This document shows, piece after piece, positions 419 through 64,000 of a DNA stretch of 64,000 nt. The position numbers and the translations under genes were made by a program. Source of the DNA: Frondihabitans peucedani. GTDB taxonomy: Bacteria > Actinomycetota > Actinomycetes > Actinomycetales > Microbacteriaceae. Positions within the stretch are counted from its first letter, which is position 1. Each line of letters starts with the position of its first letter. The stretch covers positions 1 to 64,000 of the forward strand of contig NZ_BAABAU010000003.1 in assembly GCF_039537585.1 (NCBI RefSeq), given 5' to 3'. The notes under the pieces are model-generated. The model was not told where the DNA came from. It saw only the letters and a program-made list of their open reading frames with translations, and ran no database searches.

Positions 419-680
419 GAAGGAACGAGGGGGAAGGAGCCACCACTTGAGGAAGGTTAGCCAGGCACAAGACCCGGCCCGTTTTCATTCCTTTGGGCTG
501 ACAGGAAGAAACATTACGTCCCCCACACCCAACCAGCAAATCCCACCCACATCCCGGGCGTGTCGCACCACCCCCACCCGACAAAACCCCTGATCCTGCG
601 CCGAAAGGCCACCCCCCGCCCCAAAACACGACAACACAGGGCAGAAAGCGGCCTCTCGAGAGGAGCAGCGATGGCGGCCT

Positions 681-1994
681 TCAGTCGGCGACCGTGACGC
701 CGGCGAGCGTCTTCTTGCCGCGTCGCAGAACGGCATGCTTTCCGGCCAGAGCCAGGGACGCGACCGGCGCCGACTCGTCGGACACCCGCTCGTTGTTCAC
801 GTAGACCCCGCCCTCGGCCGCCGCGCGTCGGGCAGCCCCGAGCGACGCGACGAGACCGGTGGCCACGAGAGCCTGCGAGACCGTGGTGGTCGCATCGACC
901 TCCGCATTCGGGAGCTCGGCGATGGCCGCTTCGAGAACGTCGATCGGCAGAGCCGCCAGATCGCCCTGCCCGAAGAGCGCGGCCGACGCGTCGATCGCAG
1001 CCTGCGCGGCGTCGACACCGTGGACGAGCGACGTCACCTCCAGTGCCAGTCGCTTCTGGGCCTCCCGAGCGAACGGCCGCTCGGCTACCTGCGCCGCGTA
1101 CTCCTCGATCTCGGCACGGCCGAGGAACGTGAAGACCTTGAGGCGATCGATCACGTCTTTGTCGTCCTGGTTGAGCCAGAACTGGTAGAACGCGTACGGC
1201 GAGGTCATCGACGGATCGAGCCAGACGGCGTTCCCCTCGCTTTTGCCGAACTTCGTGCCGTCGGAATTCACGACGAGCGGGGTGCCGATGGCGTGGACGG
1301 AGACACCCTCGGTGCGCCGGATCAGCTCGGTCCCGCTGGTGAGATTGCCCCACTGATCGCTGCCACCGGTCTGGAGGACGCACCCGTACGTCCGGTAGAG
1401 CTCGCGGAAGTCGAGCCCCTGCAGGATCTGGTAGCTGAACTCGGTGTAGCTGATGCCGGCGTCGGAGTTCAGCCGGGCCGAGACGGCGTCTTTCTTGAGC
1501 ATCGTGCCCACGCGGAAGTTCTTGCCGATATCGCGGAGGAACTCGATGGCCGACAGAGGCTCGGTCCAGTCGAGGTTGTTCACGACTCGAAGGCCGTTCT
1601 CGCCCTCGGGCGACAGGAACTTCTCGACGTGAACGCGGATGCGGTCGACCCACTCGGCCGTCTGCTCGCGCGTCTTGAGCGTCCGTTCAGCAGTCGGACG
1701 GGGATCGCCGATGAGACCGGTCGAGCCGCCGACGAGTCCGAGCGGCTTGTGGCCAGCGAGCTGGAGACGCCGGAGGAGGAGCAGCTGCACGAGGTTGCCG
1801 AGGTGCAGGCTCGGCGCGGTCGGGTCGAACCCGCAGTAGTACGTGATCGGGGGCCCGGCCAGGAGCTCTCGGAGCGCGGACTCGTCGGTCGAGACGTGGA
1901 CGAGCCCGCGATAGACGATCTCGTCCCACACGTTCTCGAAGGAGGGATCGTTCGTCTGGGTGGCCAGGAGGTCGGCCGTCGATTGACTCGTCAC
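681..1994 (-). CDS. tyrS: Tyrosyl-tRNA synthetase
   Basis: Charges tRNA-Tyr with tyrosine in the cytoplasm. The 437-aa protein has the class I HIGH-type motif HLGN at residues 64-67, the KMSKS-type motif KFGKS at 248-252, and a C-terminal S4 RNA-binding domain from about residue 370, the normal full length. The start is GTG. A TAAACT -10-like box lies only 6 nt upstream (2006-2001), suggesting a leaderless mRNA. Downstream on the same strand come the rRNA promoters. Confidence 0.97.
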   Translation of the reverse strand: MTSQSTADLLATQTNDPSFENVWDEIVYRGLVHVSTDESALRELLAGPPITYYCGFDPTAPSLHLGNLVQLLLLRRLQLAGHKPLGLVGGSTGLIGDPRPTAERTLKTREQTAEWVDRIRVHVEKFLSPEGENGLRVVNNLDWTEPLSAIEFLRDIGKNFRVGTMLKKDAVSARLNSDAGISYTEFSYQILQGLDFRELYRTYGCVLQTGGSDQWGNLTSGTELIRRTEGVSVHAIGTPLVVNSDGTKFGKSEGNAVWLDPSMTSPYAFYQFWLNQDDKDVIDRLKVFTFLGRAEIEEYAAQVAERPFAREAQKRLALEVTSLVHGVDAAQAAIDASAALFGQGDLAALPIDVLEAAIAELPNAEVDATTTVSQALVATGLVASLGAARRAAAEGGVYVNNERVSDESAPVASLALAGKHAVLRRGKKTLAGVTVAD

Positions 1995-2019
1995 CCCGTG
2001 AGTTTAGCGGAGGGCCTCG

Positions 2020-2610
2020 TCACGGACGCCGACGCGAGACCGCCGCACGGTAGGCGGAGACGGTCGGGTCGTCGACGTAGAAGCGCCAGGGATACGCGTC
2101 GGTGCCTGCGACACCGGAGACGCCCACTCGGGGTGACGACAGGATCCTGCGCTCGGGCACGATAGGGAACTCGAGCGAGAACGGGGGCGTGGCGATGCTC
2201 GACCCGTTGTCGGCGAGCTCGATACCGAGCGCAGTCCCGAGGTTGCCCGGGCCGCGAGCAAGGTCGGCGTCGCGCCTCGCCGTGGGTCGACGGAGGCGGG
2301 CGATGTCGAGTCCGTCGACGACCTCTCCCCCGCGCAGGAGGACTCCGGACGGGGAGCCCTCCGGGCCGCAGACGAGGTTGAGGCAGCGGTGGATGCCGTA
2401 CGACAGGTACACGTAGAGGGTTCCCGGGGGTCCCCACATGCTCGCGTTTCGCGGGGTCATGCCGCGGTGGGCGTGCGAACCGGAGTCTCGACCCTCACCG
2501 AGATAGGCCTCGACTTCGGTGAGACGGACAGCGACCCCGCCCGACCGGAAGACTGCTCCGAGCAGCAGCGGGGCTGCGTCGAGAGCGGGCCGGTCGAGCG
2601 GGGTCGTCAT
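2020..2610 (-). CDS. mpg: 3-methyladenine DNA glycosylase, AAG/Mpg family
   Basis: Removes alkylated purines to begin base excision repair. The 196-aa product has the family pattern TEVEAYLGEGRDSGSHA early in the protein (catalytic Glu within EVEAY), then MWGPPGTLYVYLSYG and a RGPGNLGTALGI segment near the middle. The ATG at 2610 was chosen because the family begins at this point; the frame stays open upstream but encodes low-complexity, Arg-rich sequence overlapping the small membrane gene. It lies 9 nt before tyrS's upstream region, on the same strand as arg genes. Confidence 0.93.
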   Translation of the reverse strand: MTTPLDRPALDAAPLLLGAVFRSGGVAVRLTEVEAYLGEGRDSGSHAHRGMTPRNASMWGPPGTLYVYLSYGIHRCLNLVCGPEGSPSGVLLRGGEVVDGLDIARLRRPTARRDADLARGPGNLGTALGIELADNGSSIATPPFSLEFPIVPERRILSSPRVGVSGVAGTDAYPWRFYVDDPTVSAYRAAVSRRRP

Positions 2611-2779: not shown

Positions 2780-6392
<3,613 letters not shown>

Positions 6393-8574: not shown

Positions 8575-9732
8575 TCAGCTCGAGTACGCGCTGTTCTCGT
8601 GCACGTAGTCGTGCGTGAGATCGTTGGTCAGGATGGTCGCCGTCTCGGAACCGGCGTGGAGATCGAGCAGGATGTGGAGCGCCCGCGGCGTCATGTCGAC
8701 CTCCGTCACCGGACGGTCGGGTGCGCCCTTGGCGCACAGCCGGACGCCGTTGAACGACACGTCGACGTCGTAGGGGTCGAACTCCGCCTGCGTGGTGCCG
8801 ATCGCCGCGAGGACGCGGCCCCAGTTGGGGTCGTTGCCGAACACGGCCGCCATCAGCAGATTGCTGCGGGCGAGGGACCGCCCGACCTCGACCGCATCCT
8901 GCTCCGAGACCGCGTTCACGACCTCGACGGTGATGTCGTGCGAGGCCCCCTCGGCGTCGCCCTGGAGCTGGCGGGCGAGGTCGGCGCAGAGCTCGGTGAC
9001 GGCGGCGGCGAAGTCGGCCTCTGCCGGCGCGACGCCCGAGGCACCGCTCGCGAGCAGCACGACGGTGTCGTTCGTCGACATGCAGCCGTCGGAGTCGAGC
9101 CGGTCGAAGGTGACCCGCGTCGCCTGGCGGAGCGCCCGGTCGAGGGCGGCGGCCGGCAGGTCGGCGTCGGTCGTCAGCACGACGAGCATCGTGGCGAGGC
9201 CGGGCGCGAGCATCCCGGCGCCCTTCGCCATGCCGCCGACGCTCCAGCCGTCGCCCTGGACCACGGCCTCTTTCGGGTGGGTGTCGGTCGTCATGATCGC
9301 CGACGCGGCATCTCTCCCGCCGTCGGGGGCGAGTGCGAGAGCGGCCGCGCGCGATCCTGCGAGGACCTTGTCGCGGAACGCCTGGTCTCCGGTGCCGATC
9401 AGACCCGTCGAGCAGACGACGACGTCGCCGGCGCCGATCTCGAGAGCGTCGGCGACCGCCTCGGCCGTCGAGTGCGTGGTCTGGAACCCGAAGGAGCCGG
9501 TGAAGCAGTTGGCGCCGCCCGAGTTGAGGACCACGGCCCGCGCGACACCGTCGGCGAGCACCTGCTGCGACCACAGGACGGGGTTGGCCTTGGCGCGGTT
9601 CGACGTGAAGACCGCCGCTGCAGCCGAGCTCGGACCCCGGTTGACGACCAGGGCGACATCGGGCAGGCCGGTCGACTTGAGGCCGGCGACGACGCCGGAG
9701 GCCTCGAAGCCCCGGGCCGCGGTGACGCTCAC
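8575..9732 (-). CDS. argJ: Bifunctional glutamate N-acetyltransferase / ornithine acetyltransferase
   Basis: Recycles the acetyl group from acetylornithine to glutamate. The 385-aa proprotein has the self-cleavage site in [15 protein letters not shown], where the Thr of ATML becomes the N-terminal nucleophile of the beta chain, and the conserved GNDPNWGR near the end. The GTG start at 9732 overlaps the argC stop (GTGA). Presence of argJ implies the cyclic pathway; argE is not seen in the window. Confidence 0.96.
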
Positions 9733-10830: not shown

Positions 10831-13355
10831 CTAGTCGCGGAGCGTCGCCCCGAATCGCTCGCCGGCCAGACGCACGGCGCCCAGCTTCGCCTCCGAGGCC
10901 TCGGCTGCGGTGAGGGTGCGGTCGGTCGCGCGGAACCGCAGCGCGAACGTCAGCGACTTCGAGCCGTCTTCGAGGCCCTCGCCCCGGTAGTCGTCGACGA
11001 GGCGCGCGGCCTCGAGGAGGTCGCCCGCGCCTTCGACGACCGCGTCGAGCACCTCGCCCGCGGGCGCGTCGGCGCCTACGACGAGCGTCAGGTCTTGCGT
11101 GGCGGCGGGGTAGCCCGAGATCGGACGGGGCTCGGGCTCCGTGCGGCCCAGGGCGATGAGTCGGTCGAGATCGATCTCGGCGACGACGACCGTGCGAGGC
11201 AGGTCGAGATCGAGCGCGAGGGCCGGCAGGAGCTCGCCGGCGAAGCCGACGACCTCGTCGCCCACCAGAACGTCTGCGGTGCGGCCGGGGTGGAGCGAGG
11301 CGTGCCGACTCTGGCGGACACGGATCTCGGCCGCCACCTGACGAGCCGCGACTCGGAGCGCGTCGATCACCTCGGCCAGATCGGTCGCTGCGGCCTGCTG
11401 ACCGGGCTGCCTGTCGACGGTCGTTCCCGTCGCCAGGATCGCGAGGTGCCGGGGCTGCACGGGCAGGCTCCCATCGAGATCTGCCAGGACGGCATCGTCG
11501 GGACGGGCTGCGCCGACCGGGATGAAGTCGGTGCCGGCTGCCCTCCCCGGAGCCGTGAAGTAGACCGAGCCGGTCTCGTAGAGCGCCAGGTCGACGAGGC
11601 CGCGCGAGAGGTTCCGGCGCGCGGTGTCGAGCAGGCCCGGGATCAGCGACATGCGCATCTCGGGAGCGTCGGAGTCGAGAGGGTTCGCCAGGCGCACCGG
11701 AGCCGCCGGCGACTGGCGGTCGGCACCGCCGACGGAGGGCGCGAACGCCGCGTTGCGGGCGGTCGACACGAAGGGGTAGGCGAAGACCTCGGTGAAGCCC
11801 GCGGCCGCGAGCCCGGTCGAGACACCGCGACGCAGGACCTGCTCGCGCGTCAGCCCGCGGCCGGGAGGGGCGGTGGGCAGGACGGAGGGGATGCGGTCGT
11901 AGCCGGTGATGCGTGCGACCTCTTCGACGAGGTCGGCCGAGTGCTGGAGGTCGGGCCGCCAGGTCGGTGGCGTGACGCTCCAGCCGCCGTCGGCGCTCTG
12001 CACGTCGGCACCGATGGCGAGGAGGCTCTCCTCCACCTCGGCGTCTGCGTAGTCGACGCCGATCAGCGATGCGGCGCGGCCCTGCGGCAGGAAGATCGCG
12101 TCCGGTGCCTCGGAGACGTCGAAGGACGAGCCCAGAGAGTCGCTCGTGCCGCCGGCGAGCTCCACGAGGAGCGACACGGCGCGCTCGGCAGCGAAGCGGG
12201 CGACCGCGGGATCGACCCCGCGCTCGAAGCGACGAGACGCTTCGCTCGGCAGCTTGTGGCGGCGCGCAGTCCGGGCGATGCTGATCGGCTCGAAGGTCGC
12301 TGCCTCGATGACGACGTCGGTCGTCGACGCGGTGACCTCCGTGCGGGCACCGCCCATGACGCCGGCCAGGCCGACGGGCCCGTCGTCGTCGGTGATGAGG
12401 AGGTCTTCGGCGTCGAGGGTGCGCTCGACGCCGTCGAGCGTCGTGAGCCTCTCGCCCGGAGCGGCACGGCGGACGGTGAAGCCGCCCGACACCGTCGCGA
12501 GGTCGTAGGCGTGCAGCGGCTGGCCGAACTCGAGCATGACGTAGTTCGTGATGTCGACCGGGAGCGAGATCGACCGGATGCCGGCGAGCCGGAGCCGGGA
12601 GCGCATCGCCGGAGGCGTCGGCAGGGTCGGGTCGATGCCGCGGACGACGGCAGTCGTGAAGGTGGTGACGCCGGTGCGACCGCGGACGGGGGCCTCGTCG
12701 GAGACGGTGACTCGGAAGCCCTCGCGAGGAGCGGGCTCCTGCTCGGCGACGGGATCGCGGAAGGCGGCTCCGGTCGCGTGCGAGTACTCGCGGGCGACGC
12801 CGCGGATGCTCAGGGCGTAGCCGCGGTCGGGCGTGACGTTGATCTCGACGGCGGCGTCGTCGAGACCCAGCAGCGGAATGGCGTCGGCGCCGACCACCGG
12901 GTCGAGGCCCAGGTCGCTCAGCAGCAGGATGCCGTCGTGCTCGTCGCCGAGACCGAGTTCGCGGCTCGACGCGATCATGCCGTCGGACACGTGCCCGTAT
13001 GTCTTGCGCGCGGCGATCGGGAACGGCCCGGGCAGGATCGCGCCGGGGAGGCTCACGACCACCTTGTCGCCCACCGCGAAGTTGTGCGCGCCGCAGACGA
13101 TGCCGCGGACGTCGTCGTCGTCGGTGGCCGCGTTCGGACCCACGGCGACGCGGCACCAGTTGATCGTCTTGCCGTTCTTCTGCGGCTCGGGCGTGAACTC
13201 GAGCACCTGGCCCACGACCAGCGGACCGGTCACCTCGGAGAGGTGGACGTCTTCTTCTTCGAAGCCGACGCTGACCAGCGCCTCGTGGACGTGCTCGAGC
13301 GTGACGTCGTCGGGGAGGTCGGTGTACTCGCCGAGCCAGGACAGCGGGATGCGCA

Positions 13356-17330: not shown

Positions 17331-18140
17331 TCAGCTCGCAGCGACGACGCGGACGGCCATGCTGTCGACCCTCGTCGCGACGACCTCGTCGCCGGCCCAT
17401 GCCTCCTGGAGCCGCGCGAGGAGCGCCGACAGGGCAGCGCGGTCGAGGCCCGGCCGGAGTCCCAGCTCGACGACGACCTCGGGGCCGCCCAGTCGGGCAT
17501 CGGGCGACGCGGCGGCGACAGTCACGGTCGACACAGCAGGATCGTCCGCGGCCGGCCGCAGGAACGCCTCGGCCACCTCGTCGTCGGCATAGGCGGGCGT
17601 CCACGGCAGTGCCTGGGCGAGTGCCCACAGCGCCGGCCGACGCACTCCGAACTCCGTGTCGGACCCGGGGTCGAGGACGAGGAGCTCGGTCGCCTCGGAA
17701 GCTGCGGCGATCGCGATCCTGCGTGTCTCGGCGGGCACCGGCCGCGCACCCGGGTTCCAGGCGCGGAGGGTGTCGACACTGGAGAACGCGGGCAGCACGC
17801 TGCGGCCGTCGGGGCCGGCGACCGTCACGATGGCGAGCTCCTGGGTCTTGTCGACCCGGACGCCGTGCTCGTTGACCCCCTCGTCGCCGGCGTGGGCCAT
17901 CAGCGGGATCAGCAGACGCGCCCCCCGAAGCGCGTCGACGACCGCGGCCTCGGAGACCTCGCGGGCCCGGAAGCGCGCCAGGGCACGGACGAGCGCAGGA
18001 TCAGCGGACCCGTCGTCGCCCGCGTACGCCGTGTCGTGCGCCTGGAACGTCCGCCCGGCCCAGGGGGTGCCGGCACTGTCGGCGCCGCCGGCGAGCCCCT
18101 CGTGCCCCGGGACCGCAGGATGCTCGGGCCGGGCCGCCAT
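17331..18140 (-). CDS. SseB-like family protein
   Basis: A 269-aa soluble protein resembling the SseB N-terminal domain family: RLLIPLMAHAGDEG and AIVTVAGPDGRSVLPAFSS followed by a C-terminal domain with PEVVVELGLRPGLDR. Its ATG shares a base with the priA stop. It commonly accompanies priA and infC in actinobacteria; no biochemical role is established. Two copies of the GATCCTGC motif described in the findings fall within it. Confidence 0.75.
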   Translation of the reverse strand: MAARPEHPAVPGHEGLAGGADSAGTPWAGRTFQAHDTAYAGDDGSADPALVRALARFRAREVSEAAVVDALRGARLLIPLMAHAGDEGVNEHGVRVDKTQELAIVTVAGPDGRSVLPAFSSVDTLRAWNPGARPVPAETRRIAIAAASEATELLVLDPGSDTEFGVRRPALWALAQALPWTPAYADDEVAEAFLRPAADDPAVSTVTVAAASPDARLGGPEVVVELGLRPGLDRAALSALLARLQEAWAGDEVVATRVDSMAVRVVAAS

Positions 18141-20259: not shown

Positions 20260-21341
20260 GCTCCGAGCCTAATGTCGCGCATGGCGTCGAGGAACGCGGT
20301 CGTCTCGGCCTCGGTGCCCGCGCTGACCCGCAGGTGACCGGGGATCGCCAGGTCGCGCACGATGATGCCGCGGTCGAGCAGGGCCTCGAAGACGGCTCGC
20401 GGGTCGTCGACCCCGCCGAAGAGGACGAAGTTCGACCAGGTCGGCCACGGGTGATAGCCGAGCTCGCCCAGGCCGTGCACGATACGGTCGCGCTGCGCCT
20501 TGATGTCGTCGACCATCGCGAGCATCTCGTCGGCGTGCCTCAGGGCGGCGACGGCGGCCGCCTGGGTCAGAGACGACAGGTGGTACGGCAGCCGGACCAG
20601 CCGGAGAGCATCGATCACGGCCGGATCGGCAGCGAGATACCCGACACGGGCGCCGGCGAACGCGAAGGCCTTGCTCATGGTGCGCGAGACGAGCAGGCGC
20701 GGACGGCCTTCGAGCAGGGTCACCGCGCTCGGCCGGTCGGCGGGCATGAACTCGAAGTACGCCTCGTCGACGAGGACGATGCCCCGGCTCGCCTCGTACG
20801 CGGCCTCGATCGTCGCCAGCTCGACCGGCGTGCCCGTCGGGTTGTTGGGAGCGCAGAGGAAGACGAGGTCGGGGTCGACCCGTCGGATCTCGGCCGCCAC
20901 CGTCTCGGGGGTGATCTCGAACCCCTCGTCGCGGCGGCCCTCCACCCACTCGGTGCCGGTGCCCCGCGTGATGATGGAGTGCATGGAGTAGGTGGGCGGG
21001 AAGCCGAGGGCACGGCGACCGGGGCCGCCGAAGGCCTGCAGGATCTGCTGGATCACCTCGTTCGACCCGTTCGCCGCCCAGATCTGGTCGGCCCGCAGCC
21101 CGTGGCCGATGTAGCCCGCGAGGCTCTCGCGGAGCGCCGTGAACTCCCGGTCGGGGTAGCGGTTGACGTCGAGGACGGCAGCAGCGAGCGACTCGACGAT
21201 GTCGCGAGCGACGTCTTCGGGAATGGGATGCGTGTTCTCGTTGACGTTGAGGGCGACGGGCACCTTCTTCTGGGGCGCGCCGTAGGGCGACTGACCACGG
21301 AGGTCGTCGCGGATGGGCAGGTCGTCGAGTGTCAGAGCCAC
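20256..21341 (-). CDS. hisC: Histidinol-phosphate aminotransferase
   Basis: PLP enzyme of fold type I, 361 aa. The PLP lysine is in [21 protein letters not shown] lies in [10 protein letters not shown]. The GTG start has TAAAAT 6 nt upstream (21353-21348), suggesting a leaderless promoter and that this is the first gene of the his run. hisD, usually next to hisC, is absent here. Confidence 0.96.
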
Positions 21342-31180: not shown

Positions 31181-31249
31181 AGTGGCGCGGCCGCGTGTCG
31201 CGCGATCCTGCAGGGCCTGCTTCTGACGTTCGTGCGCAGAAGAGCCGGG

Positions 31250-42815: not shown

Positions 42816-43260
42816 GGCTGGAGGGCTCGCGCCGCAGGCGGATGGAGCGCCGGATGGCGCCGCGCGCGCGGCGCCGGTCTCCGCACGCGTCGTAGGCCAG
42901 CCCGAGCCGGAACCAGGCCCGCCAGTCGTCGGGGCTGGCCTTCACGGCGTCGGCGTAGCCCGGGAACGCCTCGTCGGCCGCCTCCCGCTCGTAGCGTCCG
43001 CTCGCCCGGCGGGGCACGTCGTCGACGGGCAGCGAGCCCTCGCTCTCGAGCTGCTTCACGATGCGCTCGGTCGTCCAGCCGAAGCGCACCTCGGCCAGCA
43101 GGGCGAAGACGCCGATGATCGGCAGCACGAACAGCGCGACTCCGATCACGATCGCGACCGGCTCGCCGGTCTCGAGGAACAGCACGGCCCGCTGGGCGAT
43201 GAGGACGAGGTAGAGCACGAGGAGCGCGCACATCACGACGGCCGCGATCCTGCCCTTCAC
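42808..43260 (-). CDS. Membrane protein with a TPR-like tail
   Basis: A 150-aa protein with two N-terminal spans (about 5-25 and 35-58) and a cytosolic C-terminus, YADAVKASPDDWRAWFRLGLA, that looks like one tetratricopeptide repeat. It begins 7 nt after the dapB stop, so it is likely co-transcribed with dapB. No specific function recognised. Confidence 0.75.
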   Translation of the reverse strand: MKGRIAAVVMCALLVLYLVLIAQRAVLFLETGEPVAIVIGVALFVLPIIGVFALLAEVRFGWTTERIVKQLESEGSLPVDDVPRRASGRYEREAADEAFPGYADAVKASPDDWRAWFRLGLAYDACGDRRRARGAIRRSIRLRREPSSPT

Positions 43261-44045: not shown

Positions 44046-44549
44046 GTGGTGCACTATCGCGAGGTCCCTGTCGACGAGCCCGAGGCGCACGCCCTCCTCG
44101 AGGCCTACTTCACCGAGCGGATCGCGACGTTCCCCGATCCTGCCGGGTACACCACCACGTTCCCCGACTCGGCCGCGTTCGTGCCGCCGCGCGGAGTGTT
44201 CGTCGTCGTCGACCTCGACGATCGAGAGGCCGTGGCCTGCGGCGGCATCCGCAGGATCGACGCCGGCTCGTCAGGAGAGGTCAGGTACGAGGTCAAGCAC
44301 CTCTTCGTGTCGCCGGACGGCCGTGGGCACGGGCTGGGCAAGGCCCTGCTCGCCGAGCTCGAGCGTCGCGCCGCCCGGTTCGGAGCGACGGAGGCCGTGC
44401 TCGACACCAACGACAGCCTGACCGCTGCCGGGGGCCTCTACCGCTCGACCGGCTACTCGTCGATCGAGCCCTACAACGACAACCCGAACGCGACGCACTG
44501 GTACGCCAAGCGCCTGAGCGCCGTCGACGCGCCGGATATCTCCGGCTAG
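44046..44549 (+). CDS. GNAT family N-acetyltransferase
   Basis: A 167-aa single-domain acetyltransferase with the acetyl-CoA loop SPDGRGHGLGKALLAELERR. Substrate unknown. Starts at one of two adjacent GTG codons (44046/44049); TAGCAT lies 7 nt upstream. Its 3' end overlaps the following convergent phosphatase by 4 nt. Confidence 0.85.
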   Translation: MVHYREVPVDEPEAHALLEAYFTERIATFPDPAGYTTTFPDSAAFVPPRGVFVVVDLDDREAVACGGIRRIDAGSSGEVRYEVKHLFVSPDGRGHGLGKALLAELERRAARFGATEAVLDTNDSLTAAGGLYRSTGYSSIEPYNDNPNATHWYAKRLSAVDAPDISG

Positions 44550-45162: not shown

Positions 45163-46533
45163 TCACGGAAGGGCCGGCGGCGTCGTCGCCGCGGGCCGGA
45201 CGTCGGACGGATCGAACAGCGCAGGATCGACGTCGCCCACGACCACCGTGGACAGTACGCCCGCGCGCAGCTCGGCGGCGAGACTCTGCACGTCGTCGGC
45301 CGTGACCGCCGCCAGGCGGGCCAGCGACTCGTCGAGATCGACGAACTCGCCCGTTGAGATCTCGGCCCGCCCGAGGCGGTTCATGCGCGTGTCGCTGTCT
45401 TCGAGGGCCAGGGCGGCCGCCCCGCCGAGCATGCCGAGGGAGCGCTCGAGCTCGTCGGAGGTGGCACCGTCGGCCGCGAGCCGGTCGAACTCGTCGAGCA
45501 GGAGCCTCGACACGTCGGGGGCGTTGCGGGGCGCGCAGCCGGCGTAGAGGCCGAAGAGGCCGCCGTCGGAGTAGCTGGGCGTGAACGAGTAGACGGAGTA
45601 GGCGAGGCCGCGCTTCTCGCGGATCTCCTGGAAGAGCCGCGACGACATGCCGCCGCCGAGGACGGCGTTCAGCATGCTCAGCACGGGGCGCCGCGGGTCG
45701 GTGAGTGCCAGGCCGGGCACGCCGAGCAGCACCGTGGCCTGCTCCAGGGGGCGAGGGAGGACGAGGACGGGCTCGCCCTGCACGAAGGGGGCCGGGGCGG
45801 TGGAGCGACGAGGGACCGGGGTGCCCGCGGAGGCGGGCCAGCCGGCCCGGGTGAGGGCGGCCTCGATCCTGCGCACCAGCTCGTCGTGATCGACGGCACC
45901 GGCGACGGTGACGATGAGGTCTTGCGGACGGTAGTTGGCCCGGTAGTGGCGGAGCACGTCGTCGCGCTTCGCCTGGCGGATGCTGTCGGGCGAGCCGCCG
46001 ATGGGCCGACCGAGCGGGTGGTCGCCGAAGACGGACTCGAAGAGGCGCTCGCTGCCGACGTCGGCCGCGTCGTCGTCGGCCATCGCCAGCTCGTCGAGGA
46101 TGACGCCCCGCTCGATCTCGAACTCGGCCTCGTCGAGCGTCGACGAGATCACCATGTCGGCGAGGACATCGACAGCCATGTCGAGATCGACGTCGCGGAC
46201 CTTGGCGTAGTAGCAGGTGTACTCCTTGGCGGTCGCGGCGTTGTGCTCGCCGCCGACGCTCTCGAAGGCCACGGAGATGTCGAAGGCCGACCTCGTCTCG
46301 GTGCCCTTGAAGAGGAGGTGCTCGAGGAAGTGGGTGGAGCCCCGTTCGCCCTCGGTCTCGTCGCGCGAGCCCACGGCGACCCAGAAGCCGACGGTCGCGC
46401 TCCGGGCCCCGGCCATGCGCTCGGAGAGCACCCGGACACCGGTCGTCAGGATGCTCCGGCGGACGAGCTCGTCGCCGGATGCGCGGAACGAGAGCTCGAC
46501 CTGGTCGAGTGGCAGCGGGACAGGACCATTCAT
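45163..46533 (-). CDS. M16 family zinc metallopeptidase
   Basis: Pitrilysin-type processing peptidase, 456 aa. Zn site HFLEH at residues 68-72 with distal FEIERGVILDE, and the C-terminal RGLAYSVYSF segment. Such genes often follow pnp in actinobacteria; here regulators and a reductase intervene. TAGGCT stands 8 nt before the ATG. Confidence 0.93.
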   Translation of the reverse strand: MNGPVPLPLDQVELSFRASGDELVRRSILTTGVRVLSERMAGARSATVGFWVAVGSRDETEGERGSTHFLEHLLFKGTETRSAFDISVAFESVGGEHNAATAKEYTCYYAKVRDVDLDMAVDVLADMVISSTLDEAEFEIERGVILDELAMADDDAADVGSERLFESVFGDHPLGRPIGGSPDSIRQAKRDDVLRHYRANYRPQDLIVTVAGAVDHDELVRRIEAALTRAGWPASAGTPVPRRSTAPAPFVQGEPVLVLPRPLEQATVLLGVPGLALTDPRRPVLSMLNAVLGGGMSSRLFQEIREKRGLAYSVYSFTPSYSDGGLFGLYAGCAPRNAPDVSRLLLDEFDRLAADGATSDELERSLGMLGGAAALALEDSDTRMNRLGRAEISTGEFVDLDESLARLAAVTADDVQSLAAELRAGVLSTVVVGDVDPALFDPSDVRPAATTPPALP

Positions 46534-47432: not shown

Positions 47433-48533
47433 CTAGGAGCTGACCCGGTCGAGCTCCGCGACCTCGTGCCGCGTGAGCTGGACTCGAGCGGCCTCGGCCA
47501 GCTCGACGACCTGCTGCGGCGACGTGGCGCTGGCGACGGGCGCGACGACGTTCGGCTTGGCCAGCAGCCACGCGAGGGAGACCGCGGCGACCGGCGCGGC
47601 GTGGAGCGAGGCGATGCGGTCGAGCTCCGCCAGGATCCGGAGGTTCCGCTTCGAGAGGAGCTTCGCGACCTCGCTCCCCCGCCGGTGACCCTTGATGTCG
47701 GCCTTCGTGCGGTACTTGCCGGAGAGGAAGCCGCTCGCGAGCGCGAACCGCGGCATGACGGCCAGGCGCTGCTGGGCCGCGACCTTCGCGAGGTCTCTCT
47801 CGTACTCGGCGCGGTGGACGAGGCTGTACTGGTTCTGCAGCGCCACCATCGGGGCGATGCCGAGCATGCCCGAGGCGATCCTGGCCTCGTAGAGCCGGTT
47901 GCCGGAGTGGTCGGACCCGCCGAACCAGCGGACCTTGCCGGACCGGATCAGGCGGTCGACGCCGAGCAGGGTGCGTTCGAACGCCACCTCGGTGTCGTCG
48001 ATGTGCAGGTAGAGGAGGTCGATGCGGTCGGTGCCGAGCCGCTTCAGCGACGCGTCGACGGCACGCTCCATCGCCCACGGCGTGAGACCCGGGTTGTCGC
48101 GGTTCTTGCCGACCTTCGTGGCGAGCACGACGTCGTCGCGCGAGCGCCTCGAGCGCATCCACTGCCCGATCAGGCGCTCGCTCGCGCCGTCGGTGTACGA
48201 GTCGGCCGTGTCGAGGAAGTTCCCGCCCACGTTGAGGTAGGTGTCGAGGACGTCGAAGGTCTGGGCGTCGTCGGTCGTCCAGCCGAAGACGTTGCCGCTC
48301 AGCGCGACCGGGAAGACCCGGAGGTCGGAGACTCCGAGGCGCCGGCGGGGCTGGATGATGCCGAGGTCGACCGGGACGGTGGAGATGGGCTGCGTCGGAG
48401 CGGAGTGGCGGCCGTGGGGTGCGGCGGGCCGCTGATCCTGCGCATTCTCATGCGCGTCGTCCTGTGTGGCCGCGGATCGGCGCGCGGAGGATCGCGGAAG
48501 GGACGAATCGACGCGTGCGGTCGGTTCGGTCAC
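47433..48533 (-). CDS. Aldo/keto reductase
   Basis: NADPH-dependent oxidoreductase, 366 aa. Catalytic set visible: Asp and Tyr in FLDTADSYTDG, Lys in LATKVGKN, His in LLYLHIDD. The GTG at 48533 is supported by AGGAGG at 6-nt spacing, so an unusual ~50-residue polar N-terminus (ARRSAATQDDAHENAQDQR) seems real. A TACTCT -10-like box lies upstream near 48564. Confidence 0.92.
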   Translation of the reverse strand: MTEPTARVDSSLPRSSARRSAATQDDAHENAQDQRPAAPHGRHSAPTQPISTVPVDLGIIQPRRRLGVSDLRVFPVALSGNVFGWTTDDAQTFDVLDTYLNVGGNFLDTADSYTDGASERLIGQWMRSRRSRDDVVLATKVGKNRDNPGLTPWAMERAVDASLKRLGTDRIDLLYLHIDDTEVAFERTLLGVDRLIRSGKVRWFGGSDHSGNRLYEARIASGMLGIAPMVALQNQYSLVHRAEYERDLAKVAAQQRLAVMPRFALASGFLSGKYRTKADIKGHRRGSEVAKLLSKRNLRILAELDRIASLHAAPVAAVSLAWLLAKPNVVAPVASATSPQQVVELAEAARVQLTRHEVAELDRVSS

Positions 48534-52964: not shown

Positions 52965-53063
52965 CCCGCTCGGTGTGGCGGGATCCACAGGCGTCTGCAG
53001 ACGTTCTCCACAGCCGCAGGATCGGCAGAGGCGGAGCATAGAGGGCGTGGCTACTCTGATCCC

Positions 53064-54575
53064 ATGGACACCCTCCGGAGCCTGATCGCAGCCAGGTCGA
53101 GCGATGCGCCCGACGACGCCTACCTCGAAGACGCCCGCAGCGAGCGCGTCGTCACCTTCGCCGATCTCGACCGGCAGGCGACCTCGTGGTCGCGAGCCCT
53201 CGACGCCCTCGGCGTAGGTTCGAATGCGACCGTGGTCGTCGACATCGGCGACCCGCTGGCGTTCGCCGTCGCCCACCTCGCCGTGGTCGCCTCCGGTCGG
53301 CGGAGCGTGCCCGTCAACCCCCAGGGCACCTGGGCGGAGACCCTCCGCGCGGTGTCGCTCGGCGGCTCTGCGGCGATCGTGAGCGACCGCGACGAGCCCG
53401 GCGAGTCGAGCGTCCCGGTGCTGCGGCCCGACCCCGCGACGTGCTCTCCCGCGGGGGCGGCCGACTTCGATCCTGCGGCACCCGTCGACGGAGGCGCCGC
53501 TGAGCCGGGGGCGGGCTCCGTGATCCTCTTCACCTCGGGCTCGACCGGCACACCGAAGGGGGTCGAGCTGACCGAGGCGCAGCTGCTCTTCGTCGCCCGC
53601 GCGATCGCCCGGCACAACGCGCTGACGAGCGACGACCGCGGCTTCAACTCGCTGCCGCTGTTCCACGTCAACGCCGAGGTCGTCGGTCTGCTCTCGACGC
53701 TCGTCGCCGGCGCGACGCTCGTCCTCGACCGCGGATTCCACCGCACGGGCTTCTGGGAGCTGCTCGAGGAGCGGCGGATCACCTGGCTGAACGCGGTGCC
53801 CGCGATCCTGGCCGTCCTGGCGAAGTCCGGGCCCGCGCGGCCGCCGGCGGGGCTGCGCTTCGTCCGGAGCGCGTCGTCGGCCCTGCCCGAGGCCGTGCGG
53901 ACGGCGTTCGCCGGCATCCCCATGATCATCAGCTACGGCATGACCGAGGGCGCGAGCCAGATCACGGCGACGCCGCTCGGCGAAGAGCCCCGCGCGGGCT
54001 CCGTCGGGCTGCCGGTCGGCGACGAGGTGCAGCCGCGCGACGCCTCGGGAGGCGCCGTGCCCGTCGGCGAGATCGGCGAGCTGTGGATCCGGGGTCCGGG
54101 CGTCGTCACCGGCTACTTCGAGGGCCGTGCCGCCGACCGCTTCGACGCCGACGGCTGGCTCCGCACCGGCGACCTCGGGCACGTCGACGCCGACGGCTGG
54201 GTGTACCTCGCCGGCCGCACCGACGACGTCATCAACCGCGGCGGCGAGAAGGTCTACCCCGCCGAGGTCGAGGACGTCCTGCTCGAAGACGCGCGGGTGC
54301 GCGAGGCGGTCGTGGTGGCGCGGCCCGACCAGATCCTCGGGTCGGTGCCCGTGGCGTACGTCATCCCCGCCGATCTCGACCTCGCCGATCCTGCGCGCCC
54401 CGACGAGGCCCGGAAGGCGCTGACCGCCGACCTCGCGGCCCGCTGCGACGCCGAGCTGCCCCGGTTCAAGAGGCCGGTCGACATCACGGTGGTCGAAGAC
54501 CTCCCGCGGACGCCGACCGGCAAGGTGCAGCGCGGCCGGACCCGCGAGCTGCTCGCGGAGTCGACGCCAGCGTGA
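53064..54575 (+). CDS. ANL-superfamily AMP-dependent ligase
   Basis: Adenylate-forming acyl-CoA synthetase-like enzyme, 503 aa. P-loop FTSGSTGTPKGVELT, SYGMTEGASQ, GWLRTGDLGHVDADG and the C-terminal catalytic Lys in PRTPTGKVQRG are intact. The acid used is unknown. TACTCT stands 6 nt before the ATG. Its stop overlaps the next gene's GTG, so it forms an operon with a membrane acyltransferase. Confidence 0.9.
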   Translation: MDTLRSLIAARSSDAPDDAYLEDARSERVVTFADLDRQATSWSRALDALGVGSNATVVVDIGDPLAFAVAHLAVVASGRRSVPVNPQGTWAETLRAVSLGGSAAIVSDRDEPGESSVPVLRPDPATCSPAGAADFDPAAPVDGGAAEPGAGSVILFTSGSTGTPKGVELTEAQLLFVARAIARHNALTSDDRGFNSLPLFHVNAEVVGLLSTLVAGATLVLDRGFHRTGFWELLEERRITWLNAVPAILAVLAKSGPARPPAGLRFVRSASSALPEAVRTAFAGIPMIISYGMTEGASQITATPLGEEPRAGSVGLPVGDEVQPRDASGGAVPVGEIGELWIRGPGVVTGYFEGRAADRFDADGWLRTGDLGHVDADGWVYLAGRTDDVINRGGEKVYPAEVEDVLLEDARVREAVVVARPDQILGSVPVAYVIPADLDLADPARPDEARKALTADLAARCDAELPRFKRPVDITVVEDLPRTPTGKVQRGRTRELLAESTPA

Positions 54576-55780
54576 GCGAGAGGGGCGACCTGCGCGCTCC
54601 GGGCGACCCCGTCTCCGTGCCGACCGCAGCGTCGACGCCGTCTCGGGATGCCGATCCGGCCGCGACGCCAGCGCCGGTGCGCGCGGAGTCGCCGAGGCGG
54701 AAGCACCTGTACGAGGTCGACATCCTCCGGATCCTGACCTTCGTCTGCGTGATCGCCGTGCACGTGGTCAGCCACGCGGCGTCGAGCGGCGACGTCGGGC
54801 AGAACGGGTTCCTGATCCTGGTCCACTTCACCCGAGAGGTGTTCTTCGCCCTCACGGCCTTCGTCCTGGTGTACAGCTTCCTGCTGCGGCCGCGGCCCCT
54901 GGCGGAGTTCTGGCCGAGGCGGTTCCTGCTCGTCGCCCTCCCCTACGTCACCTGGTCGGCCATCTACGTCGTCGCCGACTGGCTGCACGACCCGCAGGGC
55001 ACGCTCCTCTCGCTCCTGCCGGCGTTCTGGCGCGACCTCTACACCGGCTCGGCCTGGTACCACCTCTACTTCCTGCTCGTGACGATGCAGGTGTACCTCC
55101 TCCTGCCGGTGATCGTCCGGCTGGTCCGGGCGACGCGCGGGCACCACCGGCTCGTGCTCGGCATCGCGCTGGCCGTCGAGCTCGTCATCGTCGGCAGCTA
55201 CCAGTACTTCCCGGCGCTGACCGCGTCGTTCAACCACTACAGCCGCATCGAGTTCTGGAGCTACGGCTTCCTGATCGTCGCCGGCGCGATCGCCGCCGAC
55301 CACGTGGGGCCGTTCCTCGCCTGGGTCCGCGGCAGCCGCGGGCTGATCGGGATCATCACCGCCGTCGGCGCCGCCGTCTCCCTCGCGGTCTACGCGATCA
55401 ACCTCGGGCTCGGTCAGTCGCCGGTCAAGGCGTCCACGGCCCTGCAGCCGGTCGTGATCGTGTGGTCGATCCCGGTCGCCCTCGCGTTCCTGGCGATCGG
55501 CACGGCCTGGGCCGACAGGCGTGTCGCAGGATCGCGCACCGCCCGCCTCGTCGACACGGCGAGCGACCGCTCCTTCGGCATCTTCCTGGCACACCCGTTC
55601 CTGATCTGGGTGCTGCTCCTCGCCTTCGACGGCTGGCTGCCGCGGATGATCCCGAGCCCGTGGCTGAGCGTCGTGCTGTACGTGCTGGTGGTCGTCGGGA
55701 CGGTGCTGCTGGTCGAGATCCTGCGACGCACGCCCCTGAGCCTCGCCCTGACCGGTAGGCCGTTCCGCTCGCGCCGGTAG
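54572..55780 (+). CDS. Acyltransferase_3 family membrane protein
   Basis: A 402-aa protein with about ten membrane spans after a 45-residue polar N-terminus. The family pattern YEVDILRILTFVCVIAVHVV includes the conserved His after the first helix; the end has FGIFLAHPFLIW. Such proteins O-acylate cell-surface sugars or lipids. The GTG overlaps the ligase stop (GTGA), suggesting a shared substrate. Confidence 0.88.
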   Translation: MSERGDLRAPGDPVSVPTAASTPSRDADPAATPAPVRAESPRRKHLYEVDILRILTFVCVIAVHVVSHAASSGDVGQNGFLILVHFTREVFFALTAFVLVYSFLLRPRPLAEFWPRRFLLVALPYVTWSAIYVVADWLHDPQGTLLSLLPAFWRDLYTGSAWYHLYFLLVTMQVYLLLPVIVRLVRATRGHHRLVLGIALAVELVIVGSYQYFPALTASFNHYSRIEFWSYGFLIVAGAIAADHVGPFLAWVRGSRGLIGIITAVGAAVSLAVYAINLGLGQSPVKASTALQPVVIVWSIPVALAFLAIGTAWADRRVAGSRTARLVDTASDRSFGIFLAHPFLIWVLLLAFDGWLPRMIPSPWLSVVLYVLVVVGTVLLVEILRRTPLSLALTGRPFRSRR

Positions 55781-58288: not shown

Positions 58289-59179
58289 TCAGCCGAGGAG
58301 TCCCTGGACGACCGTCGGGGCCTCGAGCACGACGGCCAGCAGGAGGGCGGCGGCAGCACCCACGGCCCAGGCGGCCCGGATCCTGCGCGCGCCGTCGACC
58401 TCGGCCCGGACGCGTGCGAACCAGGACTGCAGCTCGGCCTGCGTCGGGAGCGCCTCGGGGGCCCTCGAGTCCGGGGCGGCGGAGGCCTCTGCTGGTGGTG
58501 CCGCGAGGGCGGGCCTCGGGTGCCAGGTGCGCGGCTTGAGAGCGGCGCGGGTGAGCTCGCGGACCTCGTCGACCGTCAGGATCGCGGGGAGGCCGCGCAG
58601 GTGGCGCTCGATCGCCGCCGCTCGGACGATCACGACCTCCTCCGGCTGCTGCGCGATCCTGAGGTGCGTCGCGCCGAGCACGACCACGAGCGGCGCGACC
58701 GGCACGGGGCGTCCGAGCGCGGTCTCGAGCAGGATCGACACGCGCCCGGCGCCGACGACGGAGTCGCGGAGGTACGGGGTCGACTCCCCGTCGGCGATGA
58801 CCGAGTGGTCCCAGACGACGACGCGCTTGCCGGGGTGGTTCTCGGTCGTGAGCGTGAAGACGCCGGCCGGTCCGATGACGACGTGGTCGACGTCGCGAAC
58901 GCCGTCGCCGACCGGCACCGAGTGGAGCACCCGCCAGGCCTCGCCGCGCGTGCCGAGGGCGCGCAGCCGCTCGGCGACCTCGAGCTCGCCCACGGCTCCG
59001 ACGAACCACAGACGGGCGCCGGGGGCGAGAGGGCTGCGGCCGGTAAGGCGCATCCGAGGACTTCGGTGAGCAGCGTCGTGCTGGCTCCGCCAGAGGCGTT
59101 CGAGCATCGTGGGCTCCGGCGCGCGGTCGTCGGCCAGCGGTGCTGACACGAGGTCGTCACTCGGACTCGGGATCGTCAA
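58289..59179 (-). CDS. NERD-domain protein with C-terminal membrane anchor
   Basis: A 296-aa protein with a nuclease-related (NERD) domain: GAVGELEVAERL, then DVDHVVIGPAGVFTLTTENH, followed by GKRVVV, and a C-terminal span (about 270-290). NERD resembles PD-(D/E)XK nucleases. The frame opens at TTG 59179; GTG 59149 is an alternative start. Role unknown. Confidence 0.8.
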   Translation of the reverse strand: MTIPSPSDDLVSAPLADDRAPEPTMLERLWRSQHDAAHRSPRMRLTGRSPLAPGARLWFVGAVGELEVAERLRALGTRGEAWRVLHSVPVGDGVRDVDHVVIGPAGVFTLTTENHPGKRVVVWDHSVIADGESTPYLRDSVVGAGRVSILLETALGRPVPVAPLVVVLGATHLRIAQQPEEVVIVRAAAIERHLRGLPAILTVDEVRELTRAALKPRTWHPRPALAAPPAEASAAPDSRAPEALPTQAELQSWFARVRAEVDGARRIRAAWAVGAAAALLLAVVLEAPTVVQGLLG

Positions 59180-60641: not shown

Positions 60642-60818
60642 GGGATCAACGGTAGCGGGCCCCGGCTGCGCGTCCCGCCTCGGGTGCCGCCCGATCCTGC
60701 GCTCGGACGCGTACCCCGGACTGGGGCCGCTCCGTCCCCCGAACGGGCGCTGCTGGTCGGCGCCGCCCTCTGGTGGACTTGACAGCGACCACCCCGACCC
60801 GCCGATCGAGAGGCCACG

Positions 60819-61856: not shown

Positions 61857-61916
61857 GGCGCAGGATCGGCCCGGCGGCACTCTCGCTGAGGCTCACGCTG
61901 CCTCGACCCCGGGGCC

Positions 61917-64000
61917 TCAGGCCACCTCGACCACGGTCAGCCGCTGCGTCGGCCTGGTCATCGCCACGTAGAGGCTCGCGTTGCCCCGCGAGGAGAGCTC
62001 GCGGATCTGCCTCGGACCGACGACCACGACCGAGTCGAACTCGAGGCCCTTCGACGTGGCGGGGCTCAGGACGCTGATCGGCGCGGTGAGCGAGCTCGTG
62101 CCGAGCGCGACATCGCCGGGGAAGCGCTCCTCGAGTGCACCGGCCAACCCCTCCACGAGGGCCTCAGGGGCGATGACCGCCAGCGTGCCCACCGCGTCGA
62201 TGCCGCGATCGAGAGCGACCGCCTCGACGACAGCCTCGCGGGCGTCATCACCCGCCTGGACCTCCCGCACCGGCCACTCGCTCGCGCGGACCGACCGGGA
62301 CGCGGTGATCCGGAGCCCCGACTCGCGGGCGACCCGCTCGGCGTACTCGACGATCTGGCTCGGGGTGCGGTAGTTGACGGTCAGCTCTTCGAGGCGCCAC
62401 GGGCCGGTCTCGCTGGACGCGGCCTGGCGGCGGCGACCGAGGAGGCTCTGCAGCGCGCGGTCCCACGAGTCGGCCGAGGCAGGCGAGGACGCCTGCGCGA
62501 TGTCGCCGACGACCGTGAAGGACCGCAGCGGGCAGCGCCGGGCGAGGAGTCGCCACTGCATGGGCGAGAGCTCCTGCGCCTCGTCGACGACGACGTGGCC
62601 GAACGCCCACGTCCGGTCGCCCGCAGCGCGCTCGGCGGTCGTCATCGACGCTGCCCGCTCGGCGAAGTTCCCGGCGATGTCGGACGCCGACACCATGCCC
62701 TCGACCTGCATGTTCTCGATGGCGCGCTCGGCGTTCTCGATGTCGCGCTTCTGCTGCTGCTTGCGCGCCCGCTCCCCCGCATCGACGGCGACGTCGAACT
62801 CGCCGAGGAGCTCGGCCGCCTCGTCGAGGAGCGGGACGTCGCTGATCGTCATGGCCGAGCCCCGCTCGCGCCGCAGCAGGGCGCGCTCCTCGTCGGTCCA
62901 CTGGGGCGTGATGCTCCGGAGCCAGTTCGGGCGGGCGTAGAGGTCTTCGAGGAGCTTCTGCGGGGTGAGCGGCAGCCAGGCCGTGTTGAGGAGCACGCGG
63001 ACGTCGTACGACTGCCGGATGTCTTCGCGGAGGACGAGGACGTCGGCGTCGTCGATCGTCGTGCCGCGCGTGCGGAGCTGTGCGACGAGCTGCCGGGTGA
63101 GGGCGGCGAGCGCGTTCTTGTTGAAGGTGACGCGGCCCTCGTTGTGCGGCTTCCCGCGATCCTGCGCCCGCTTCATCGCGTCGACGACGAGCTGCGGCTG
63201 CACGACGAGACGCTCGCCGTCGATGTCGACGGTGGCCGGCTCGGTCGGCGGGATCTGCCGCGAGCGGACGGCTCGCCGGAGCAGGTCGGCCATGCGCGAC
63301 GCGCCCTTGAGAGCGGCGACGTCGGGAGCGTCGTCGGTCGTCGCCTCGACGCCCGGGTAGAGGCCGCCGACGCTCGACAGGACGACGCCCGACTCGCCGA
63401 GCGACGGGAGCACCTGCTCGATGTAGCGGAGGAACGAGCGCGACGGCCCGACGACGAGCACGCCCGAGCCCCGAAGCCGCTCGCGGTGCGAGTAGAGGAG
63501 GTAGGCGGCGCGGTGGAGCGCGACCGCGGTCTTGCCGGTGCCGGGGCCGCCCTGCACGACCAGGATGCCGTCGAGCGCCGACCGGATGATGCGGTCCTGC
63601 TCGCCCTGGATGGTCGCGACGATGTCGGTCATCCTGCCGGTGCGCTGCGCTGTGAGCGCTGCCATCAGGGCGCCCTCGCCCTGCAGCTGCGCGTCGCCCC
63701 GGTCGAGGAGCGCGGCGTCGAAGACCTCGTCCTCGATGCGGGTGACCGTGCGGCCCTCGAGGGTCAGGTGACGCCTGGCGCGGGCTCCCATCGGGGTCGC
63801 CGCGGTCGCCTGATAGAAGGCGCTCGCACCGGGCACGCGCCAGTCGAGCAGGATCGGGTGGTGGTCGGGATCGCGGAGACCGATGCGCCCGATGTAGCGG
63901 TAGTCGCCCGACGGAGCCCCGTGGACGGCGGTCAGCGACCGGGGGGACGTCGTCTCGTCGGGCTCCTCGAGCTCGAGGCGACCGAAGGCCAGGCGGTCGT
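61917..64000 (-). CDS. helD: HelD/HelR-type UvrD-like ATPase, 5' end beyond window
   Basis: Superfamily 1 helicase-like protein that removes RNA polymerase from DNA; some relatives confer rifampicin tolerance. At least 694 residues are present and the frame is open to the right edge, so it is truncated by the window, not mutated. Seen: DYRYIGRIGLRDPDHHPILL, Walker A VVQGGPGTGKTAVAL, DEAQELSPMQW and ATSKGLEFDSVVVV with YVAMTRPTQRL at the end. Which HelD class it belongs to is not resolved. Confidence 0.9.
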   Translation of the reverse strand, partial: DRLAFGRLELEEPDETTSPRSLTAVHGAPSGDYRYIGRIGLRDPDHHPILLDWRVPGASAFYQATAATPMGARARRHLTLEGRTVTRIEDEVFDAALLDRGDAQLQGEGALMAALTAQRTGRMTDIVATIQGEQDRIIRSALDGILVVQGGPGTGKTAVALHRAAYLLYSHRERLRGSGVLVVGPSRSFLRYIEQVLPSLGESGVVLSSVGGLYPGVEATTDDAPDVAALKGASRMADLLRRAVRSRQIPPTEPATVDIDGERLVVQPQLVVDAMKRAQDRGKPHNEGRVTFNKNALAALTRQLVAQLRTRGTTIDDADVLVLREDIRQSYDVRVLLNTAWLPLTPQKLLEDLYARPNWLRSITPQWTDEERALLRRERGSAMTISDVPLLDEAAELLGEFDVAVDAGERARKQQQKRDIENAERAIENMQVEGMVSASDIAGNFAERAASMTTAERAAGDRTWAFGHVVVDEAQELSPMQWRLLARRCPLRSFTVVGDIAQASSPASADSWDRALQSLLGRRRQAASSETGPWRLEELTVNYRTPSQIVEYAERVARESGLRITASRSVRASEWPVREVQAGDDAREAVVEAVALDRGIDAVGTLAVIAPEALVEGLAGALEERFPGDVALGTSSLTAPISVLSPATSKGLEFDSVVVVGPRQIRELSSRGNASLYVAMTRPTQRLTVVEVA

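Follow-up and report, generated by a model that had tools for sequence, protein, structure and literature searches.

A dispersed word in Frondihabitans peucedani suggests an unrecognised DNA signal resembling bacterial self tags

The first 64,000 nucleotides of contig NZ_BAABAU010000003.1 of Frondihabitans peucedani (Microbacteriaceae), which are referred to here as the window, contain many dispersed copies of the 8-mer GATCCTGC. To our knowledge, genome-wide DNA words are of few kinds: uptake sequences, the highly iterated palindrome HIP1, Chi, and segregation words. The question raised by this stretch is whether GATCCTGC is a signal in the DNA itself and, if so, which of these kinds it resembles. 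GATCCTGC was far commoner than genes require, and relatives were found to use variants peculiar to them. This suggests a hitherto unrecognised signal in the DNA, similar to bacterial "self" tags. That the signal is genuine, works at the level of the chromosome, and comes in dialects is close to certain.

When the window was recounted, 39 copies of GATCCTGC were observed, 19 on the plus strand and 20 on the minus strand; with the following G, the word reads CGCAGGATC on the other strand. Every one of the 38 starts listed in the first-pass annotation was correct, and one copy inside pheT (13032, minus strand) had been overlooked. The chance expectation of roughly 2 copies, calculated by hand in that annotation, was too low. 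Dinucleotide shuffles gave 3.78 copies (maximum 11 in 100 shuffles), an order-2 Markov model gave 4.3, and synonymous-codon shuffling gave 4.96 for the genes (maximum 11 in 200), in which 34 copies were found. The excess in the window was 7- to 10-fold, depending on the null model. The five copies previously placed in gaps did lie outside predicted genes. GAT-CCT-GC, which had been described as frequent, was the leading frame with 12 of the 34 gene copies; G-ATC-CTG-C came second (10/34), and the three frames of GCAGGATC together accounted for 12/34.

Across all 12 contigs of the genome (3,692,699 bases), 3,208 copies were counted, 1,629 forward and 1,579 reverse, corresponding to 869 per Mb or about one per kb. 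Below, the genome of the window is denoted G000, its congeners G001-G006, other genomes and genera by G and g numbers, and sampled stretches by L numbers. The near-even strand balance and the genome-wide role first proposed from the window held at this scale, as strand counts over 35 stretches of G000 were within binomial noise (chi-square 19.2), with no heterogeneity beyond it. GATCCTGC is not palindromic, and its palindromic doubling GCAGGATCCTGC occurred 11 times in a 744-kb sample of G000. This sample consisted of 39 stretches including the window (L014-L017 read N, and L004 is plasmid). Genes were predicted using a simple home-made codon-score finder, by which 87% of the sample was called coding, and genes that it missed were counted as gaps.

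The genes of this sample contained 550 copies of GATCCTGC, compared with 72 expected when synonymous codons were shuffled within each gene and 104 (range 87-121, 20 shuffles) when a pooled shuffle keeping the codon-junction bases was used. All six frames exceeded the codon expectation: GAT-CCT-GC was observed 116 times vs 2.2 expected, G-ATC-CTG-C 199 vs 54.6 (3.6-fold), the third sense frame 5 vs 0.2, GCA-GGA-TC 68 vs 1.2, GC-AGG-ATC 91 vs 8.1, and G-CAG-GAT-C 71 vs 5.8. When all 8-mers in the sample genes were ranked against the codon null, GATCCTGC was at the top (z 56), and the 9-mer GATCCTGCG was enriched 13.4-fold. Copies showed no position bias within genes (469 copies, Kolmogorov-Smirnov p 0.31). 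Furthermore, 48 copies were observed in intergenic DNA (386 gaps of 30-400 bp, 50.3 kb) vs 3.6 under the order-2 model, a 13-fold excess. The first-pass annotation had allowed that the excess might vanish against a Markov model or codon preference; it stayed, both in the genome counts and in the genes.

Comparison within the genus showed that individual sites come and go between species and that the word is nevertheless partly kept. The seven genomes carried 0.22 to 0.87 copies per kb (rounded genome sizes). When 60-64 kb of synteny around the window was compared per genome and 1,020 ortholog pairs were aligned, 226 of the 654 mapped sites (35%) were identical in other species, indicating that sites turn over. 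Rare codons lying wholly in the word were kept in 163/351 comparisons, whereas identical codons at other places in these gene pairs were kept in 117/752 (Mantel-Haenszel odds ratio 6.0, z 10.6, with pairs that share genomes). For three non-overlapping genome pairs, drawn from six genomes, the figures were 22/35 vs 13/56 (odds ratio 4.8, z 3.2). The suspicion at first sight that the DNA and not the codons is the target, by selection or drive, was borne out by the codon shuffles, the gap excess and this rare-codon retention. Indeed, GATCCTGC acts at the DNA level, as an asymmetric word near even on both strands. Some congeners had raised levels of variants differing by a single base: GCAGGAAC in G005 (46 vs 10.5 expected) and GCAGGAGC in G001 (72 vs 23.1) and G004 (31 vs 10.3).

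The first-pass annotation had also recommended a comparison with other Microbacteriaceae, and 249 genomes of 85 genera were searched. With rounded genome sizes, GATCCTGCG was found at 91-474 per Mb in the genus of the window (six genomes), at 140 in G052 (genus g47), and at no more than 64 elsewhere; GATCCTGC belongs to one genus of the family plus one further genome. Of the named PheT proteins, that of Frigoribacterium faeni came closest to the PheT of the window (72%), in a search that may have lacked records of G000 or its near relatives. The words of other genera, CGGATGCC(G), GGATGCGC, and CGGATCCG, share GGAT. We then scanned about 20 kb per sample against the codon null; 51 of 59 family samples and 38 of 55 outside samples had enough predicted genes, and GC-poor genera dropped out because the gene finder was trained for GC-rich genes. 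In the family samples outside the window's genus, the top 8-mer contained GGAT/ATCC in 24/51 (shuffled controls 2; base rate 1.4%), or in 22/49 without L202 and L203, which had been picked as known to be word-rich. Some genera were sampled repeatedly, and one sample, L069, comes from an actinomycete without a classification that was assigned to the family on a PheT identity of 60%. Outside the family, the corresponding number was 0/38 (controls 1). The shared core GGAT is a reading of the words, made mostly from about 20 kb per genome. The comparison showed that GATCCTGC is one genus's dialect in a family-wide set of dispersed GGAT words.

The dialects also changed between close relatives. CGGATGCCG ranged from 3.6 to 771 per Mb over the 249 genomes, and 21 of 65 genera outside the window's genus had a genome above 300 per Mb (genomes of at least 2.5 Mb). 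In the window's genus it stood at 42-63 per Mb, and CGGATGCC was enriched 1.3-fold in G000 genes. In genus g85, CGGATGCCG was found at 660 (G110), 466 (G217), and 53 (G167) per Mb. The word of G110 is CGGATGCC(G), and its sister species G167 uses CGGATCC instead, in all frames (83 vs 12.3 expected in genes of 30 kb; L211, L239); the G167 word, CGGATCCG, is palindromic. As a separate observation, genus g51 avoids CGGATGCCG, with 14 and 10 copies in G056 and G125 vs 57 and 55 for reversed-word controls. Among the matches listed in open-licence full text, neither GATCCTGC nor CGGATGCC nor any word common to the Microbacteriaceae was described, which is a weak negative.

Subsequently, plasmid and phage DNA were examined. 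Contig C2 of G000 (94,412 bp) carries a TrwC/MobF relaxase that shares, over 92%, about 87% identity with a plasmid-borne relaxase of Frondihabitans sp. PAMC 28766; C2 was taken as a plasmid and the other contigs were counted as chromosome. GATCCTGC was in excess on the chromosome sample (627 vs 54.3 expected) and not on this resident plasmid contig (6 vs 5.5). In the Frondihabitans plasmid, 7 copies vs 5.1 expected were counted over the initial 100 kb. Phages were compared using 8- and 9-mer Microbacterium words. Three lytic Microbacterium foliorum phages (L240, L241, L242) contained these words at 2.1- to 2.9-fold, three control phages (two Gordonia, one Mycobacterium) at 0.7- to 1.3-fold, and three stretches from Microbacterium species other than M. 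foliorum contained them at 3.1- to 4.3-fold.

Our preferred explanation, to which we assign a probability of roughly 35%, is by analogy: GATCCTGC may be a self-DNA mark of the DNA-uptake-sequence class with a putative reader protein. It is favoured because of the asymmetry, the near-even strands, the density, the core-based dialects, and the lack of excess on the plasmid. A putative sequence-specific protein would bind GATCCTGC, and uptake or homologous recombination would favour pieces of kin DNA that contain the word. Such a preference could drive the spread of new copies and their drift into dialects. The first candidates for the reader would be a pilin or minor pilin of the type IV pilus of the genus, or a ComEA-like receptor. 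It is possible, though doubtful, that the whole family uses self-DNA words with genus and species dialects, read by a putative protein that acts on incoming or recombining DNA; this would be the first uptake-type self-recognition in Gram-positive bacteria.

Two known systems served as the measure. For the DNA uptake sequence (DUS) of Neisseriaceae, the consulted part of a published survey gives dialects of 2,245 to 5,918 copies, a short conserved core CTG, and neighbouring species with changed dialects (PMC3630211). Like DUS, GATCCTGC is short, asymmetric, and present in thousands of copies that lie on either strand, both within genes and between them; its 3,208 copies in 3.7 Mb fall within the DUS range given in that part, and dialects form around a core, GGAT here and CTG there. 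Unlike DUS, it occurs in a Gram-positive family, lytic phages of one host genus weakly share the word of that host, and the pilus genes track it loosely. The uptake signal sequence (USS) of Pasteurellaceae has a density near one per kb. Extracts of the USS literature give hundreds to thousands of copies (PMC2346458), and copy number and density are to that extent similar here. Unlike with USS, the spacing of GATCCTGC is random.

G000 has machinery that could serve such a role. A type IV pilus operon was found at C1:2146275-2158213, encoding a T2SSE ATPase, a PilC-like T2SSF protein, a prepilin peptidase, PilM, and PilO. Three proteins of the operon have the N-methylation motif, one of them below the Pfam cut-off, and a second pilin-like protein stood outside the Pfam scan; Pfam matched neither the protein that precedes the peptidase nor the one that separates PilM from PilO. 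PilM was present in 7/7 genomes of the genus and in 123/249 family genomes. Among the 183 genomes from other genera that reached 2.5 Mb, the median of CGGATGCCG was 204 per Mb with PilM vs 95 without; PilM of G078 was below the Pfam cut-off and was counted as absent. By genus, the geometric mean was 191 per Mb for PilM-majority genera vs 104 (p 0.009; 38 vs 27 genera). PilM is therefore associated with the word, but the clear exceptions in g57, g60, g79, and g85 led us to reject it as the determinant. ComEC gave no contrast, since 245/249 family genomes carry it, and it was discarded as a discriminator.

Several points weigh against the uptake-like reading. We know of no uptake specificity in Gram-positive bacteria. 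The main text of a Micrococcus luteus transformation paper contains the term "uptake sequence" 0 times (PMC8467076). No PilM match was obtained in the word-rich genomes of the four exceptional genera, and in mixed genera the PilM contrast ran both ways. Regular spacing was not seen: placement was random, with a coefficient of variation of 0.99 over 570 gaps, stretches below 15 kb or with fewer than 10 copies being omitted. Plasmid C2 could simply be young in the lineage; it is also GC-poorer (0.640), while the density of GATCCTGC in G000 stretches rises with GC content (rho 0.62). GGAT as the common core could be partly coincidence. The phage excess counts in the same direction because natural transformation does not predict it.

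Given the phage excess, the genera that break the pilus association, and the palindrome used by G167, a HIP-like process stands almost level with the uptake-like reading. The function of HIP1 is still debated. According to this alternative, which we regard as possible but somewhat unlikely, a methylase- or repair-linked process acting on all cell-replicated DNA makes or keeps the word, a mechanism that has been proposed for the HIP sites of cyanobacteria. In the consulted part of a cyanobacterial study, HIP sites are dominant 8-mers numbering about 500-2500 per Mb, which some species have lost or exchanged for related words, and whose one-base deviants are biased to the ends (PMC4390886). GATCCTGC resembles HIP1 and the alternate HIP words in being the dominant 8-mer of its genome, in the replacement by related words from lineage to lineage, in the widespread orphan methylase described below, and in the G167 palindrome. 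It is unlike HIP1 in that most Microbacteriaceae words are non-palindromic, GATCCTGC itself included, and none of the methylases searched follows the word or its dialects. The lack of GATCCTGC excess on the plasmid contig also speaks against such a process, whereas the weak sharing of the host-genus word by lytic phages speaks for it.

The one-base neighbours of GATCCTGC were compatible with the end bias of HIP sites. In the sample genes, the last-base variants were the most enriched (GATCCTGA, 3.7-fold for A; T, 2.8-fold; G, 2.7-fold), followed by the first-base variant CATCCTGC (C, 2.3-fold), and the other 20 neighbours were at 0- to 1.9-fold. The clearest depletion was that of GATCCTCC (31 vs 88) and GGTCCTGC (61 vs 102), a possible trace of a conversion process; however, these words sit within wider avoided families (CATCCTCC, 7 vs 95; AGGTCC, 324 vs 802). 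C-to-T precursors showed no clear depletion (GATCTTGC 33 vs 28, AATCCTGC 8 vs 5.1, GATTCTGC 2 vs 3.8, GATCCTAC 0 vs 2.2), and context-specific repair conversion of the Vsr type is weakened, though GATCCTCC and GGTCCTGC are depleted. A mobile repeat was also rejected: the flanks of the 39 window copies were unlike one another beyond a preceding C (28/39) and a following G (26/39), and in general a preceding A was disfavoured and a following G favoured.

The methylases were then considered. An orphan CcrM/RsrI-like adenine methylase gene (L204:4743-5594, on G000 C4) adjoins the lipoate ligase gene lplA, and no endonuclease was recognised among the six open frames scanned beside it. It was found in 224/249 family genomes at E 1e-20 (four only weakly), word-poor genomes included, and is well conserved in genera with different words. 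This methylase looked promising at first because no match was obtained in G056 and G125 of the CGGATGCCG-avoiding genus g51. The wider search did not bear it out as the determinant; indeed, three g49 genomes without it keep modest CGGATGCCG levels (109-183 per Mb). Of the methylase families searched, PF01555 was present in 57/57 genomes and PF02086 (D12) in 10/57, without tracking the word. D12-type enzymes occurred in 2/7 genomes of the window's genus, G000 not among them. The short list drawn up in the first-pass annotation (HIP1-like, uptake-like, methylation-linked) was still right, but a Dam-type reading of the GATC in the word was weakened, because related genera have words without GATC, D12 is sporadic, and the orphan methylase is common to genera with different words.

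It is improbable that GATCCTGC is the site of a chromosome-organising protein needing many sites, such as a nucleoid-associated, condensin-loading, or segregation factor. The chromosome excess without plasmid excess, the density of about one per kb, and the near-even strands would suit such a protein. Furthermore, neighbouring copies less than 1 kb apart in G000 were in opposite orientation more often than in the same orientation (213 vs 139, p 1e-4). None of seven control words in G000 favoured opposite orientation, and CGGCATCG strongly favoured the same (79 vs 30). In twelve samples of other genera, the counts were 81 vs 55 for CGGATGCC (p 0.03) and 79 vs 61 for GGATGCCG (p 0.15). However, this preference was not seen in the congeners (G006, 27 vs 26; G001, 12 vs 14; G002-G005, 8 vs 7), the spacing is random, and four- to five-fold density differences among congeners fit poorly with an essential structural role. 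It also counts against this reading that the segregation words known to us are few or strand-skewed.

Less probable still is a Chi-like site that restrains some recombination nuclease, not RecBCD but for example AdnAB. Like Chi and the FtsK-orienting polar sequences (KOPS), GATCCTGC is a short, over-represented chromosomal word; it is asymmetric, and such words occurred weakly in linear phage genomes and not on the plasmid. The small strand asymmetry of G000 stretches correlated with GC skew (rho -0.54, p 8e-4), but it followed gene strand as well or better (rho 0.60), as the G-ATC-CTG-C frame predicts. Neither this correlation nor the depleted neighbours moved the odds, because strand counts were within noise and the neighbours in deficit are part of larger groups of avoided words. 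RecC (PF04257) was found in 0/249 family genomes by a search that was positive in E. coli as a control; the family accordingly has no RecBCD, and a RecBCD-Chi role is ruled out. The word also changes between congeners, whereas the Chi words known to us are constant among species of one genus. A polar Chi or KOPS role had been judged less likely from the window, in agreement with the RecC result and the near-even strands.

Codon or amino-acid preference, or chance, is hardly credible: favoured codons make up the G-ATC-CTG-C frame with its 199 of 550 gene copies, but that frame alone is at 3.6 times its own codon expectation, the remaining five are at 11 to 57 times theirs, the 13-fold intergenic excess is beyond the reach of codon preference, and the window, per-gene, and pooled codon shuffles all rule it out as the cause.

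Table 1. Exact GATCCTGC matches in the window. Gene or gap status is from the home-made gene prediction; the last column gives the number of ortholog-mapped congeners with an identical site over the number mapped.
Position	Strand	Location or frame	Identical sites
592..599	+	between genes (gap)	
1421..1428	-	within gene	4/6
2143..2150	+	within gene	1/4
3558..3565	-	GAT-CCT-GC frame	4/6
3579..3586	+	inverted pair with 3558 copy	0/6
9353..9360	+	within gene	3/6
13032..13039	-	inside pheT; overlooked earlier	0/5
17536..17543	-	GAT-CCT-GC frame	0/6
17715..17722	+	within gene	0/6
17995..18002	-	GAT-CCT-GC frame	1/6
21038..21045	-	within gene	5/6
23767..23774	-	within gene	3/6
25529..25536	+	within gene	0/6
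26654..26661	-	GAT-CCT-GC frame	3/6
27158..27165	-	GAT-CCT-GC frame	0/1
31204..31211	+	between genes (gap)	
34801..34808	-	GAT-CCT-GC frame	0/6
35908..35915	-	GAT-CCT-GC frame	2/6
37765..37772	-	within gene	5/5
38541..38548	-	within gene	4/6
39773..39780	+	within gene	
39955..39962	+	within gene	
43246..43253	+	within gene	1/6
44136..44143	+	GAT-CCT-GC frame	3/6
44251..44258	-	within gene	2/6
45221..45228	-	GAT-CCT-GC frame	1/6
45865..45872	+	within gene	1/6
48434..48441	+	within gene	0/1
53016..53023	-	between genes (gap)	
53469..53476	+	GAT-CCT-GC frame	1/3
54387..54394	+	GAT-CCT-GC frame	1/1
55526..55533	-	within gene	0/3
55717..55724	+	within gene	2/3
58379..58386	+	within gene	
58729..58736	-	within gene	
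60693..60700	+	between genes (gap)	
61860..61867	-	between genes (gap)	
63158..63165	+	within gene	0/2
63848..63855	-	within gene	1/2

Other features were observed in the same material. The window is also rich in a second dispersed word, GCACCGGCAC/GTGCCGGTGC (13 vs 0.6, order-2 model), and in AGGACGTCCT (6 vs 0.2, same model). In the G000 sample genes, CCATCCTCC/GGAGGATGG was missing (0 vs 33 expected), probably because ribosome-binding sites just ahead of a start codon are avoided, and CCCCCCC occurred once vs 127 expected. The pheT match of G006 (C1:2258240-2260767) was in two overlapping pieces, a frameshift or an assembly error. Stretch L053 (G000 C4:300001-320000) had a GC content of 0.645 and 3 copies of GATCCTGC in 20 kb, where 33 stretches of this length averaged 17.4 (L004 included); it carries COX1-type oxidase and glycosyltransferase genes and was possibly acquired.

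The set of words shifts among and within genera of a family with many harmless, culturable members, and offers a natural experiment: close relatives can be compared for their word, its reader protein, and its effect. The word may also serve as a practical marker, with stretches that lack it as candidate foreign DNA. If the process is HIP-like, Microbacteriaceae would provide a second, independent case for methylation and repair models. If GATCCTGC is a true self-DNA mark, specific DNA exchange would extend to Gram-positive bacteria, and such words would help to define gene-exchange partners in soil and plant communities.

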